Below are positions 3,360-55,928 of a stretch of 64,000 nt of DNA, one piece after another. Position numbers and translations under genes: made by a program. Source of the stretch: Diadophis punctatus similis (Eukaryota; Chordata; Lepidosauria; Squamata; Dipsadidae); the NCBI GenBank assembly GCA_023053685.1, contig JALIGW010000002.1:171521430-171585429 (forward strand), given 5' to 3'. Numbering within the stretch: position 1 is the first letter of the stretch; each line of letters begins with the position of its first letter. Under the pieces are notes generated by a model, which saw only the letters and a program-made list of their open reading frames with translations, made no database searches and was not told where the DNA came from.

Positions 3360-3916
3360 CAGTGATGGCGAACCTATGGCACACATGCCACAGGTGGCAC
3401 ACGGAGCCATATCGGAGGGCACGCGAGGCGTTGCCCTGTCAGCTCCACGGGCAAACCGGAAGTTCGGAAAAACGCACTTCCGGTTTGCCGTTGTGCTGTT
3501 TTTCGCACTCCGGAGGGTTCAGGGAAGCTTCCTGAAGCCCCGGAATGCAAAAAACGACAAAACGGGCAAACCAGAAGTTCGGAAAACGCACTTCCGGTTT
3601 GCCATTGGGCTATTTTTAGCACTCCGGATGGTTCAGGGAAGCTTCCTGAAGCCCCGGAGTGCAAAAAACACCCCAATGGACAAACCGGAAGTGCGTTTTC
3701 CGAACTTCCGATTTGCCCGTTTCGTCGTTTTTTACTGTTCCAGGCTTCGGTAAGGCCTTTGCGCGGGGGTGGGGGGGTGTGCACATGCGCAGGGGGCAGC
3801 ATGGGGGGTTGTGCTCATGTGTTGGGGGGAGAGAATGGGTGTGGGCACATGTGTGCGCGCTAGCGCGTGCACACACCCCTTTTGGCACGTGAACCAAAAA
3901 AGGTTCGCCATCACTG
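3360..3916. mobile_element. Non-autonomous hAT-type DNA transposon, 557 bp
   Basis: The element opens with CAGTGATGGCGAACC and closes with the inverse GGTTCGCCATCACTG, giving about 15-bp terminal inverted repeats. The flanks ATCTAACA (3352-3359) and GTCTAACA (3917-3924) match at 7 of 8 bases, as expected for an aged 8-bp hAT target duplication. The inside is GC-rich, carries repeats of about 115 bp (listed separately) and a GCACATGCGCA motif at 3781-3791. Open frames crossing it are by-products of the repeat structure. There is no transposase, so it would need a partner element for movement. Confidence 0.85.
3449..3735. repeat. Internal ~115-bp tandem units with inverted motif inside hAT
   Basis: A block containing 'ggcaaaccggaagttcgg' followed by its near inverse 'cttccggtttgcc' begins at 3449 and again at 3565 (period 116). 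A third, partly flipped copy begins near 3679. Each unit can fold into a hairpin, and the copies also share 'ggttcagggaagcttcctgaagcccc'-like sequence, itself partly palindromic. Confidence 0.8.
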
Positions 3917-4442: not shown

Positions 4443-5040
4443 CTAAGTGTATAATTTAGACACCTTCTCTATCATATCTCCATTCACTATTACTTTGGCT
4501 GTTTGTTTACTAGAAATCGTTTTAATTACATTAATAAATCTTTTTCCAAAGTCCATAGTTTGAAGTTGCATTGTCATAAATTGCCAATTCACGTTGTCAA
4601 ATGCTTTCTGTGCGTCTAAAAACATTAAAGCCACTTGTTTTCCAGGATGCTGTTCATAATATTCTAATGCATTTAAAATCGTTTGCATATTGTCTTTAAT
4701 CTGTCTTTTAGGTAAATATCCATTTTGGTCAGAATGTATAAATTCGCTTAGAAATTTTTTGAGTCTATTTGCCATTATTGATGCAAATATTTTATAGTCT
4801 GCATTCAAAAGTGAAATCGGTCTGTAATTTTTAATTTTCTGTAAATCAGTCTCTTCTTTTGGTATCAAAGTTATAAATGCTTCTGTCCATGATTCTGGTA
4901 TTTTAGCTTCTAATAGCAATTCATTGTATAGTTCCAGCATCACAATTCCTAATGTTTCTTCAAAAGTTTTATACATCTCTACTGGTATCCCATCTGGTCC
5001 TGGTGCTTTACTATTTTTCTGTCTTTACTATATTTACTAT
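4443..5040 (-). pseudogene. L1 LINE ORF2 fragment (reverse transcriptase fingers/palm)
   Basis: Read on the minus strand, this is a 177-codon open frame (4443-4976) with the standard L1 reverse-transcriptase landmarks in order: TLIPKE, then NYRPISLLNADYKI, then NRLKKFL, DQNGYLPKRQIKDN, and FLDAQKAFDNVNW. Sequence just upstream (to about 5030) reads NSKAPGPDGIP in the same frame, so homology continues beyond the first ATG. The catalytic [FY]xDD segment and everything after it are missing. The frame stops just after 'VIVNGDMIEKVSK' with no 3'UTR or poly-A. It is a dead fragment, truncated at both ends and comparatively well preserved. Confidence 0.93.
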
Positions 5041-10658: not shown

Positions 10659-10717
10659 GTGTCAATGTTGACACCTGGCAACTGCAATTTTCTTGGTAAG
10701 ATTTTTCATGACTAGTT
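10659..10717 (-). mobile_element. tRNA-derived SINE, 3' part (split by the HES-carrying hAT)
   Basis: On the minus strand this reads '...aaaaatcttaccaagaaaattgcagttgccaggtgtcaacattg', the 3' region of the SINE family also present at 34076-34270. It continues at 12138-12289. The break falls exactly at the target duplication GACTAGTT (10710-10717 and 12138-12145), which independently confirms the ends of the inserted element. Confidence 0.8.
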
Positions 10718-10783
10718 TAAAGTGACCAGATTTTTTTTTTTTAAGCGGGACACCGAAGGGGGCGGGGCCGCCTGGACGCCGGG

Positions 10784-10833
10784 TTTTGCCCTCTGTGCAT
10801 GCGCAGAACGCTGCGCATGCGCAGAGGGCAAAA
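10784..10833. repeat. GC-rich hairpin with NRF1-like palindrome
   Basis: 'ttttgccctctg...' at 10784 is answered by '...cagagggcaaaa' ending at 10833, with TGCGCATGCGCA at 10812-10823 and a near copy at 10796-10805. TGCGCATGCGCA matches the NRF1 (alpha-PAL) binding consensus. The same hairpin forms the centre of the element at 55431-55740. Confidence 0.8.
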
Positions 10834-10847
10834 GACCGCTAATGTCA

Positions 10848-10900
10848 TTTCACAAGAGCCGTTCGCGTGCAGGGCAGTTTATAAATAGCGGCCGCCAGGT
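10848..10900 (+). promoter_or_regulatory. Captured HES1/HES4 core promoter, left arm
   Basis: In order: N-box CACAAG (10851-10856), the block GAGCCGTTCGCGTGCAG (10856-10872), TATA box TTTATAAATA (10878-10887) and 'gcggccgccagg'. From memory, the mouse Hes1 promoter has the same order, with an identical 17-bp middle block, a TATATATA box and a GGCCGCCAGGG following. In native genes the N-boxes are bound by the HES protein itself for negative feedback. Transcription would run rightward into the captured 5'UTR and coding segment. Whether it is active here cannot be seen. Confidence 0.85.
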
Positions 10901-11109
10901 AGGGAGCCGGCCGGGGTTGCGCAGGGCTGGGGGAGGCTCGCTAGCCCGGCAGCTCCGGCCGCAGGAAAGAGCGGGGGGGGGGGTGCCGTACTGGGAAGGG
11001 CCAGCAGTCGCCGCCGCCTGAGGGGGCCACCCCCCCTGCCCGCCCGCCCGCTTCGCTACAGGGGACGCTGCACCGGATCCTGAGTCGCGCCGGCTCTCCC
11101 GCGGCCACG

Positions 11110-11214
11110 ATGCCCGCCGACCTGATGGAGAAGAGCTCCTCCTCGCCCGCGGCGGCCATCCCAGCCAGCGCCGGAGGAGTCAACGCAGGACGCCCGCCCG
11201 CCGCCCACAGCTGA
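11110..11214 (+). pseudogene. Captured first coding segment of a HES1/HES4-like gene, left arm
   Basis: An ATG with A at -3 lies 223 nt downstream of the TATA box, a distance close to that expected for a HES1 5'UTR. It opens a 34-codon frame beginning MPADLMEKSSSSP and continuing AAAIPAS; the vertebrate HES1/HES4 N-terminus reads MPAD-x-MEK-x-SSSP-x-AA-x-PAS. After PAS the frame departs (an AGG insertion, then VN, then unrelated residues) and stops at TGA 11212-11214. The basic helix-loop-helix, Orange domain and WRPW tail are absent, so no functional repressor could be made. I cannot tell HES1 from HES4. Confidence 0.85.
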
Positions 11215-11336
11215 GAGGCCAGCTGCTGCTGCTGCTGCTGCGGCTGGGCCCCCAGTCCCGGTGGCGGGAAGGCTGCGGCGGCGGCCCCAGCCTGCTGAGC
11301 CAGCGCCGGCCCGAGGGTCATGGATGCGACTCCTTC
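11215..11336. other. Inner part of left arm: unidentified GC-rich segment
   Basis: Past the HES frame the arm holds a CTG/CAG run (11222-11240) and alanine/glutamine-type coding on the minus strand. It may be HES intron 1, a second captured gene fragment, or filler. See the frame beginning at 11435, which is the same sequence in the other arm. Confidence 0.4.
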
Positions 11337-11434
11337 GCTCAGGCCGCCCCGCCCACCGCGACGCCGGCCTTTTCGAGAGGGCGGGGCTGCATCAGGCGCC
11401 TCTCCACCTTCCAGGGGCGGAAGGAGTCGCATCC

Positions 11435-11600
11435 ATGACCCTCGGGCCGGCGCTGGCTCAGCAGGCTGGGGCCGCCGCCGCAGCCTTCCCGCCGCCGGGA
11501 CTGGGGGCCCAGCCGCAGCAGCAGCAGCAGCAGGCCTCTCAGCTGTGGGCGGCGGGGGGGCGTCCTGCGTTGACTCCTCCGGCGCTGGCCGGGATGGCCG
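11435..11600 (+). other. Possible second captured coding fragment (unidentified)
   Basis: Reading outward from the spacer, an ATG at 11435-11437 opens MTLGPALAQQAGAAAAAF followed by a proline/glycine stretch, six glutamines and ASQLWAA. The same frame is open in the mirror arm on the minus strand. The Ala/Gln-rich composition resembles the N-terminus of many nuclear regulators, but I do not recognise a gene. It runs antisense to the HES segment, where its continuation is only a shadow frame. Confidence 0.3.
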
Positions 11601-11643
11601 CCGCGGGCGAGGAGGAGCTCTTCTCCATCAGGTCGGCGGGCAT
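11539..11643 (-). pseudogene. Captured first coding segment of a HES1/HES4-like gene, right arm
   Basis: Mirror copy of the frame at 11110-11214, read leftward. ATG is at 11643-11641 and TGA ends at 11539. The 34 residues are the same, including MPADLMEKSSSSP; the coding differences seen are silent or lie in a C-run that preserves frame. The frame is also open well upstream of this ATG. Confidence 0.85.
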
Positions 11644-11855
11644 CGTGGCCGCGGGAGAGCCGGCGCGACTCGGGATCCGGTGCAGCGTCCCCTGCAGCGA
11701 AGCGGGCGGGCGGGCGGGGGGGGTGGCCCCCTCAGGCGGCGGCGACTGCTGGCCCTTCCCAGTACGGCACACCACCCCCCCCCGCTCTTTCCTGCGGCCG
11801 GAGCTGCCGGGCTAGCGAGCCTCCCCCAGCCCTGCGCAACCCCGGCCGGCTCCCT

Positions 11856-11985
11856 ACCTGGCGGCCGCTATTTATAAACTGCCCTGCACGCGAACGGCTC
11901 TTGTGAAACTTGCCAAACTTGTGAAGAGCACTTGCAAAGCCGTGCCCGCCGAAAATTGTATTTGTCTTTCGCCCCCCATGAGCCG
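11856..11985 (-). promoter_or_regulatory. Captured HES1/HES4 promoter, right arm, with extra upstream sequence
   Basis: Minus-strand TATA box at 11869-11878, the 17-bp GAGCCGTTCGCGTGCAG block at 11884-11900, N-box CACAAG at 11900-11905 and a second CACAAG at 11918-11923. Between the two, 'gtttggcaagtttcac' lines up with the remembered mouse 'gtttgggaagtttcac'. The TGGGAA core that resembles an RBPJ/CSL site in the gene is TGGCAA here. This arm keeps about 75 nt more upstream sequence than the left arm, so the inverted duplication took place after capture of a longer fragment. Confidence 0.8.
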
Positions 11986-12137
11986 CGGCCGGCCGTCCCT
12001 GCAGGGGAGAGCCCGCCCCCCAGCCCTCCCTCGCCCCTTTCAAAAAATCGGGACTTTTTAAGAGGGCGGGCGGGACGCGGGACAAACCATTAAAAAGCGG
12101 GTCTGTCCCGCCAAAATCGGGACGTCTGGTCACCTTA

Positions 12138-12289
12138 GACTAGTTTGCCATTGCCTTCTTTTTCCTAGGATTGAATGAGAATGAATGGCCCAAATTCATC
12201 CAGCTGGCTTCTTGCTTAAGGCAGAACTAGAACTCACAGTCTCCTGGTTTCTAGCCTGGTGCCTTTAACCACTGCATCAAACTGGTTCT
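12138..12289 (-). mobile_element. tRNA-derived SINE, 5' part (split by the HES-carrying hAT)
   Basis: On the minus strand this begins near 12289 with 'gatgcagtggttaaagg' (A-box like), then 'gagttctagttctgcc' (B-box like), and a body ending 'ggcaatggcaaact' at the break. The rest lies at 10659-10717. Confidence 0.8.
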
Positions 12290-27964: not shown

Positions 27965-28205
27965 CTTTGAAGGCCCCCCGCACCCATTCTGGGCCTAGCA
28001 AGCCTCCCTACAGCCCCCTGGAAGCCAAAAGGGGTGCGGGGGCACCGCTCCCCCGTGCCCCATTTTGGACCTAGCAAGCCTCCCTACAGCCCCCTGGGAG
28101 CCAAAAGGGGCACGGAGGGGGCGCTGTACCTCCTGTGCCCCATTTTGGGCCTAGCAAGGCTCCCTACATCCCCCTGAGAGCCAAAAGGGACGCAGGGGGG
28201 ACCCT
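27965..28205 (+). repeat. GC-rich minisatellite, three ~80-bp units
   Basis: 'gcctagcaagcctccctaca' followed by 'gccccctgg.agccaaaagggg' and a C/G-rich stretch occurs three times with substitutions. Confidence 0.9.
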
Positions 28206-54760: not shown

Positions 54761-55430
54761 AATGGTGTGCCATAGCTGGCACAACTAGCCATAAAACACT
54801 ACTTTCTCAGAAAGTAACTAGCTCCTTGAATTGCTATCAAATTTCTTAGTAGACCTTTTGTGGAACCTAAAGGCATTACTGTAAAGAAATGTGATCTTAG
54901 TTTACTTTGCTTTGCTTTGCTTTTGTTTTACTTTATTATTTGTTTTATGCTGGTCTTCTAGTTAAAAAGAATCTTTTAAAAAAGTTCTGATGGAACAGGA
55001 AGCAAAGGAAATGCTTGAGGCCCATTGGTATTCATATGAGCACTATGCTGCCAGTCTCCAGCCCAGTTTTACACCCATATATATTCACTCAAAATTCTTT
55101 CTGTATCATTGGAGCACTACAGCAAATGTCTTCCCTCTCACTTTTTATTTAAATCATCTACATGTCTCTCCAGCCATTTATGAATGAGCCTGTGTAAACA
55201 AAGTAAATTTCTTTTTGAAATGCTTGTTTACAGAAACTGCCATTTTTGTGCTTGTACAGTACAACGTGACTATGCTACATAACTGTCATGAGCTCATTGA
55301 AGTGTGTAGGTAAGTATCTGAATGTAATTATCAGGTAAATCAGCAACAAGACATGGTTTCAAAAAAGATGAAACAAATGTGATGACATCACAATGCAAGC
55401 TCTGCCCCTTACTTATTTGTATGTGGTATC
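54761..55430. other. No recognised feature
   Basis: Nothing supported. Confidence 0.45.
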
Positions 55431-55740
55431 TAGGGGTGAAATCCTCCCGGTTCGCTCTTACCTGTTGGTCACTGCACAGCCGAACAACTTGGTGGCGTTC
55501 ACAGCGCGGGGCTTCCCCCGCCCGCTTTCCCCGCCCGCCGGGATGCCGCTGTTTGCGTTCTTTTGCCCTCTGCGCATGCGCAAAGCGTTCTGCTTGCGCA
55601 GAGGGCAAAAGAACGCAAATGCCGGTGTCCAAGCGGGCGGGGAAAGTGGGCGTGGGAAGCCCCGCGCCACGAATGCCACCAGGTTGTTCGGCTGTGTGGC
55701 GACCAACAGGTAAGAGCGAACTGGGAGGATTTCACCCCTG
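55431..55740. mobile_element. Fully palindromic hAT element, 310 bp, perfect target duplication
   Basis: 'taggggtgaaatcctcccgg' at the left is inverse to the right end, and the arms pair over almost the whole length, centred at 55585. GTGGTATC is at both 55423-55430 and 55741-55748. The centre is the hairpin 'ttttgccctctg' / 'cagagggcaaaa' with TGCGCATGCGCA at 55571-55582, homologous to 10784-10833. CpG content is high. The long frames on both strands are symmetrical by-products. Confidence 0.95.
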
Positions 55741-55928
55741 GTGGTATCATAATTCAGGTTCAAAAAAGATGGGATTTTGAGTTGTGGTGCCATATATTTT
55801 CCCATTAGCACCCCCAGCAGTTACTCTAATTTAAATAAAAATCCATTTTTTATCACCCTGGTGAAGAAGTGAGCAAGCAACTGTTTCAATGACATCTCAA
55901 TCTGTTGTCCGAATTGTGTTGTATTAAT

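Follow-up and report, generated by a model that had tools for sequence, protein, structure and literature searches.

A non-autonomous hAT transposon family bearing the HES1 promoter and start codon as two inverted arms in a snake genome

We analysed a window of 64,000 nucleotides from the snake Diadophis punctatus similis (GenBank assembly GCA_023053685.1, contig JALIGW010000002.1, positions 171,521,430 to 171,585,429 of the forward strand; contig C112 herein), which harbors a complete non-autonomous hAT element of 1420 bp, a member of a short subfamily, with a G+C content of 70% compared with 37% in the remaining window (Table 1). As an earlier note on this DNA had stated, the element has clean ends and is flanked by a perfect 8-bp target-site duplication; the ends, TAAAGTGACCAGA and TAAGGTGACCAGA, form the short terminal inverted repeats that are a trait of hAT elements. 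The interior is close to a palindrome, since the arm pieces 10848–10981 and 11775–11908 are 100% complementary, 10973–11241 and 11512–11780 are 97% complementary, and 11223–11336 and 11420–11533 are 99% complementary. Both arms contain CACAAG, GAGCCGTTCGCGTGCAG, TATAAAT and an ATG opening MPADLMEKSSSSP, and each holds TTTCACAAGAGCCGTTCGCGTGCAG together with a TATA box and an ATG with MPADLMEKSSSSPAAAIPASA; the N-box, TATA box and start codon previously read in each arm are therefore all there, the ATG lying 230 nt past the TATA box in the left arm. HES1 sequence in the left arm stops at 11171, with parental transposon sequence occupying 11172–11336, and the 34-residue frame that had been taken for a HES coding start is HES1 in its first 21 residues only, the other 13 being derived from the parental transposon. 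The longest stop-to-stop frame inside the element (229 aa) is composed of HES1 plus parental arm sequence. In a search for a transposase inside the element, the two translated peptides searched had no Pfam match, and the 34-residue peptide matched no PDB chain and no Pfam family. When the two flanks were joined and compared with other sequence, five matches were retrieved, all in L002 and L065, which overlap and represent a single place. One of these matches, in L002 (70% over 135 bp), crosses the insertion point, while the remainder of the window gave no match. This weakly suggests insertion into a repeat, as the note had stated; the repeat is presumably a SINE, the label that the note used.

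Table 1 Features of the HES1-bearing hAT element and its flanks (window coordinates)
Feature	Position	Strand	Remark
Target-site duplication, left, GACTAGTT	10710..10717	.	perfect 8 bp
Whole non-autonomous hAT element	10718..12137	+	ends + 8-bp duplication
Left terminal region, parental hAT (= L091 1-137), GTTTTGCCCTCTGYGCATGCGCAG hairpin	10718..10847	+	91% to L091
Left HES1 arm: N-box-like CACAAG, TATA, predicted 5'UTR, ATG, 21 codons	10848..11171	+	= native L052 6269-6595
TATAAAT, TATA box of left HES1 promoter, inward	10880..10886	+	
Left 34-codon fusion frame: 21 HES1 + 13 parental-element codons, stop	11110..11214	+	
Parental-element inverted pair around spacer 11337-11419	11172..11581	.	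= L091 481-~789 + inverted 744-481
Right-arm 34-codon fusion frame	11539..11643	-	
Right HES1 arm, inverted; 11 nt extra native gene (AAGTTTGGCAA) vs left	11582..11920	-	= native L052 6258-6595
TATA box of right HES1 promoter, inward	11870..11876	-	
Right terminal region, parental hAT (= L091 800-1003)	11921..12137	+	100%/32 bp + 95%/101 bp, weaker between
Target-site duplication, right, GACTAGTT	12138..12145	.	perfect 8 bp

The left transposon/HES1 junction, of which the consensus has one per element, was found at 275 places in the genome (at most one mismatch; control 0), and the 100 of these places that were listed are spread over many contigs. A 22-mer from the HES1 core, a pattern that admits the native gene too, occurs 456 times (235 + 221; reversed control 0). 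The copy count proposed in the earlier note was made by DNA search, in which 40 of 2,075 first-look candidates were scored (the window copy included): all 40 span positions 1–1420 at 92–100% identity, with 8-bp duplications that are perfect in 39 and carry one mismatch in the other, and that differ in every copy. On contig C1, the first 30 listed places of the 22-mer were grouped by hand into 20 elements, 17 of which have both ends and a perfect duplication (L065, L066 and L082 being also within the 40 scored copies), whilst a motif test showed the remaining three to be without complete ends, L072 and L075 looking truncated and L076 diverged. A longer subfamily has a consensus of 1,515 bp, built from nine copies, in which the arms reach almost to a loop of ~36 nt. 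One further member of 978 bp (L068) has a single HES1 arm and a perfect duplication, and could be either a deletion product or a precursor.

HES1 is a developmental regulator and a target of Notch. We searched the same genome (G000, 1.78 Gb in 419 contigs) with the Hairy/orange family PF07527, which gave 10 places from 23 scored candidates, all exceeding the curated cut-off. The gene at L052 (contig C364) has four coding exons, and its protein, with the exons joined by hand, matches the Transcription factor HES-1 chains 2mh3 and 7c4o, as well as, more weakly, two MITF chains. Comparison with this native locus, as the earlier note had advised, showed that both arms align with its promoter, predicted 5'UTR and first 21 codons at a BLAST identity of 93%, each arm carrying ~327–338 bp of HES1 from just upstream of the TATA box through codon 21. 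With gaps ignored, the long-subfamily consensus differs from native HES1 at 8 of 318 positions in the left arm and 8 of 329 in the right, and the eight substitutions are identical, while the corresponding values for the short-subfamily consensus are 8/318 and 9/329. The native and element sequences also differ in length, with gap runs of 1–11 bases, which indicates that the donor allele was not exactly that in the assembly; TATA box and start codon keep near-native spacing in the arms, with length changes between them. The CACAAG N-box lies at native CACACGAG, that is, CACGAG two bases on, so that this motif, earlier put forward as a HES1 feature, is present in the arms while the native gene has CACGAG there. 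A second candidate donor, L051, is a different gene with MPADTMEKPTASP, which we take to be HES4-like. It was rejected, as the arm peptide agrees with L051 at 13 of 21 residues and with L052 at 20 of 21 (direct translation), and the element consensus has no match in L051 at E 1e-3. Although the better tblastn match of the 34-residue peptide is that on L051 (62% over 21 residues, E 5e-4; on L052, 8 residues at E 0.05), this preference is outweighed by the DNA alignment and the direct translation, by which the donor is L052; the HES1/HES4 origin first suggested thus narrows to HES1, from promoter to codon 21. In addition, the right arm aligns at 84% over 64 bp (E 2e-15) with a published Notch-reporter fragment containing GAGCCGTTCGCGTG (PMC4391858), a paper in whose text the name “Hes1” is absent. 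This is not a chance match, as the alignment scores 81 and none of 500 dinucleotide shuffles exceeded 31. We presume the fragment to be the mouse Hes1 promoter.

The parental element was sought with a pattern that required the inner arm part and excluded HES1 context, giving 16 places, three of which were read. These parents (L090, L091 and L092) are ~1.0 kb long (two were excised at 1,006 and 1,003 bp), are without the HES1 segment, and resemble the element at 91–93% in the left end, 77–85% in the inner piece and 76–95% in the right end, with a duplication that is perfect in L091 and L092 (in L092 from the flanks) and has one mismatch in L090. At E 0.01, neither L090 nor L092 matched the native HES1 5' region, and L091 matched it once, over 38 bp (76%, E 0.005), which we take for chance similarity in GC-rich sequence. 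Relative to L091, the element consists of bases 1–137, HES1, 481–~789, inverted 744–481, inverted HES1 and 800–1003, HES1 occupying the slot of bases 138–480 and the inverted copy lying near parental base 790; from 1333 to 1414 of the long consensus, the similarity of the right terminal region to the parent is incomplete. The parental junction was counted at 3,560 places, a figure to be read with the qualification that this left segment may occur in other families too. The inner arm piece was also considered as a second captured gene (frame MTLGPALAQQ...), and this was rejected: it has no Pfam match, none of 384 protein candidates reached E ≤10, and the pattern that excludes HES1 context identified it as parental transposon sequence. 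As a separate observation, the inner piece of L090 and L091 contains polyQ-like and coding-like stretches, and is possibly an older captured gene.

A related source of transposase was looked for with the hAT dimerisation domain, for which 150 of 984 candidates were scored and four with long open frames examined. L089 (646–3546) has a perfect TCCATCCT duplication, a 632-codon stop-to-stop frame with a match to PF05699 (Dimer_Tnp_hAT, E 4.9e-9), and ends akin to those of the element (81% over 97 bp at the right, 77% over 39 bp at the left). L086, with a similar protein, has one matching end in the stretch examined, and L087 and L088 have none in theirs. It is likely that an L089-like element supplied the transposase, L089 itself being a relative (81% at one end) and a candidate helper. 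The duplication consensus of Buster-branch hAT elements is nnnTAnnn, and the fourth and fifth duplication bases are A or T in 40/40 and 37/40 of our scored copies, respectively, with T-then-A not strict. The assignment to hAT rests on the 8-bp duplications, the short terminal inverted repeats and the Dimer_Tnp_hAT relative with related ends. The family also has the marks of a Pack-TIR, being non-autonomous, with a cargo-free counterpart and a HES1 filler whose parent copy lies elsewhere (C364 vs C112). Pack-MULEs have Mutator ends and duplications of 9–11 bp, and the 8-bp duplications and the hAT relative set our family apart from them.

The 40 scored copies differ from their own consensus by 0.95% on average and by 0.45% at non-CpG sites, values that are biased, since these copies are the most query-like and older ones are under-represented. 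Decay at CpG amounts to 2.48% per site versus 0.29% for non-CpG transitions, which suggests germline methylation. Between the short and long subfamilies, 19 columns are changed in both arms of each (three of these lie dispersed in the centre, where the alignment is poor), and 62 further columns vary otherwise, mostly within that centre. Within single copies, 26 of 390 single-arm variants are common to both arms, a modest excess over 200 permutations (mean 9.0, maximum 16). The arms have likely been homogenised by exchange or re-copying between them.

In the native L052 promoter, TGTGGGAA, the RBPJ consensus of the Notch response, starts 14 nt before TTTGGCAA. The capture begins between the two sites, which leaves the element without TGTGGGAA and the left arm without both; in the long consensus, neither arm has TGTGGGAA, and TTTGGCAA alone is found, in the right arm. 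The two TATA boxes face into the element, and to leave it a transcript from the left one would have to traverse ~1.3 kb. If it is assumed to start ~30 nt past the left TATA box and is cut at 1300 of the long consensus, such a transcript is 94% paired (MFE −1358 kcal/mol over 1108 nt). With promoters directed inward, the predicted outcome is a transcript that folds back on itself as a long hairpin, and not expression of neighbours; outward promoter activity is unlikely, the functional options left being a predicted hairpin RNA or putative factor binding. The earlier idea of a multi-copy family scattering HES-responsive promoters therefore holds for the copy number (275 junction places), but needs amending as to the promoters, which face inward and leave out TGTGGGAA, so that the family does not simply spread outward-reading ones.

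We consider it very probable that this is a non-autonomous hAT element in which the start of HES1 forms two inverted arms; template switching is the likely means of copying, and a related transposase is likely to have multiplied the element to ~275 places. No copy is caught moving in our data. The captured stretch starts upstream of the TATA box, which speaks for DNA, and not mRNA, as the likely template. HES1 would have been copied into a parental element by template switching at the DNA level, during gap repair or replication, replacing bases 138–480, and a fold-back switch at the central loop would then have made the inverted second arm; judging by the 11 extra native bases of the right arm, it is the left arm that appears to have been shortened. 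The HES1-bearing copies would have been spread by the hAT transposase of a related element, and their inward promoters, if active, would make self-complementary RNA without driving neighbouring genes. The cargo would thereafter be mostly a passenger, methylated in the germline.

Two other accounts concern the origin of the cargo. That the two arms stem from separate captures, rather than from one capture and an inverted copy, is very unlikely; the greater reach of the right arm into native HES1 speaks for it, but in the long consensus all eight substitutions relative to the native gene are found in both arms, which points to one capture followed by inverted duplication, and both arms exit HES1 at the identical base into the identical parental base. 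That the sequence arose by segmental duplication or retroposition of HES1, or through faulty assembly, has a negligible probability and was rejected, for we found nothing in its favour: the listed junction places lie on many contigs, the 40 copies sit in 40 different duplications, and sequence upstream of the TATA box is included. With the donor on another contig (C364) and the cargo enclosed between duplicated ends at 275 places, the sequence is not a local segmental copy, and the Pack-type transduplication proposed at the outset is upheld, the more so as a cargo-free parental family exists.

The remaining alternatives ascribe a role to the cargo. The inverted arms could act as a natural HES1 hairpin, double-stranded RNA over the HES1 leader giving rise to small RNAs or editing on HES1, or to silencing of the family. 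The inward TATA boxes and the pairing of the assumed transcript are in keeping with this, as are the antisense Pack-TIR transcripts and small-RNA effects discussed in the available part of PMC8277862 and the small-RNA crosstalk in that of PMC8616336; we nevertheless regard it as unlikely, given that CpG decay suggests copies methylated in the germline and that any inverted repeat pairs as a plain consequence of its structure. It is rather improbable that the captured promoter aided the spread of the subfamily, for example through open chromatin in HES1-active germ or stem cells. The number of places, the apparent youth of the dated copies and the preference of multicopy Pack-TIRs for GC-rich captures (PMC8277862, as far as available) fit such an effect, whereas the HES1-free parental junction is ~13 times commoner (with its segment possibly in other families), the copies show methylation-type decay, and those dated are the closest to the query. 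Similarly doubtful is the more elaborate scenario in which the mobile hairpins at ~275 places, with their paired inward HES1 core promoters, would be transcribed at the sites of HES1 activity and would act back on the HES1 oscillator as double-stranded RNA or decoy binding sites; if true, copies of a vertebrate's own HES1 leader would be dispersed through its genome as a natural library of inverted repeats. Since the captured promoter belongs to a developmental regulator, the family in any case lends itself to asking, in a natural setting, whether such promoters become silenced, serve as decoys or give rise to hairpin RNA.

The capture had been called very unusual, a judgement that does not hold for capture by an animal hAT as such: the available part of Tan et al. 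(2021, PMC8277862) reports 370 Pack-TIRs in 100 animal genomes, of which 208 are hAT and four multicopy, including a frog example, hAT-N8_XT, with 291 bp of CAPSL (5' UTR included) at three loci, and gives five copies for one frog Pack-TIR family. Our element resembles these Pack-hATs in that a TIR element carries a copied gene fragment with the parent copy elsewhere, in the frog case also with 5' UTR, and is unlike them in that its junction occurs at 275 places, where the survey has four multicopy cases among 370, and that its cargo runs from core promoter to start codon as an inverted pair. According to Sela et al. (2008, PMC2572040), Turmoil-1 of C. elegans likewise has fragments within its inverted repeats, with cargo present twice in opposite sense; it belongs, however, to the Harbinger superfamily (usually 3-bp duplications), carries coding fragments of rsp-2 and cpg-3, and has its own transposase, being present as a single complete copy plus eight fragments. 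FB4 with captured Ssk, as described in the same available part of PMC8277862, shares repetitive TIRs and the transfer of 5' upstream plus gene sequence to new places, but it is found at three loci in fly lines, holds nearly the whole gene and is annotated as TcMariner. Plant Pack-MULEs are, in that source, also non-autonomous elements with GC-rich gene pieces (PMC8277862); they are of the Mutator superfamily, whereas ours is hAT. Literature searches covering open-licence papers found no description of a HES1-bearing hAT family, and a search with GGTGACCAGA yielded, by title, nothing on a HES1-bearing element among the matches listed. Animal Pack-TIRs and inverted-repeat cargo being already known, what appears to be new is the combination, namely a HES1 promoter with start codon, twice and inverted, at 275 places. 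It provides a dissected case of capture, with parents, native gene, junctions and amplified product all within one genome, and, seeing that the surveyed multicopy animal Pack-TIRs number four in what is available of PMC8277862, a family of 275 places would supply numbers that the field lacks, on breakpoints, fold-back duplication, arm homogenisation and methylation.

Elsewhere in the window, a second palindromic short element lies at 55430–55741, with the ends CTAGGGGTGAAATCC and GGATTTCACCCCTGG. Its centre has a GTTTTGCCCTCTGCGCATGCGCAG hairpin in common with the left end of the HES1-bearing element (87% over 61 bp), so that this hairpin module is present in different families. A reverse-transcriptase-like open frame (KAPGPDGIPVEMYK...), which we assume to be LINE-like, spans 4443–5024, and tandem repeats of 114 bp and 80 bp are located at 3447–3717 and 27983–28203, respectively.
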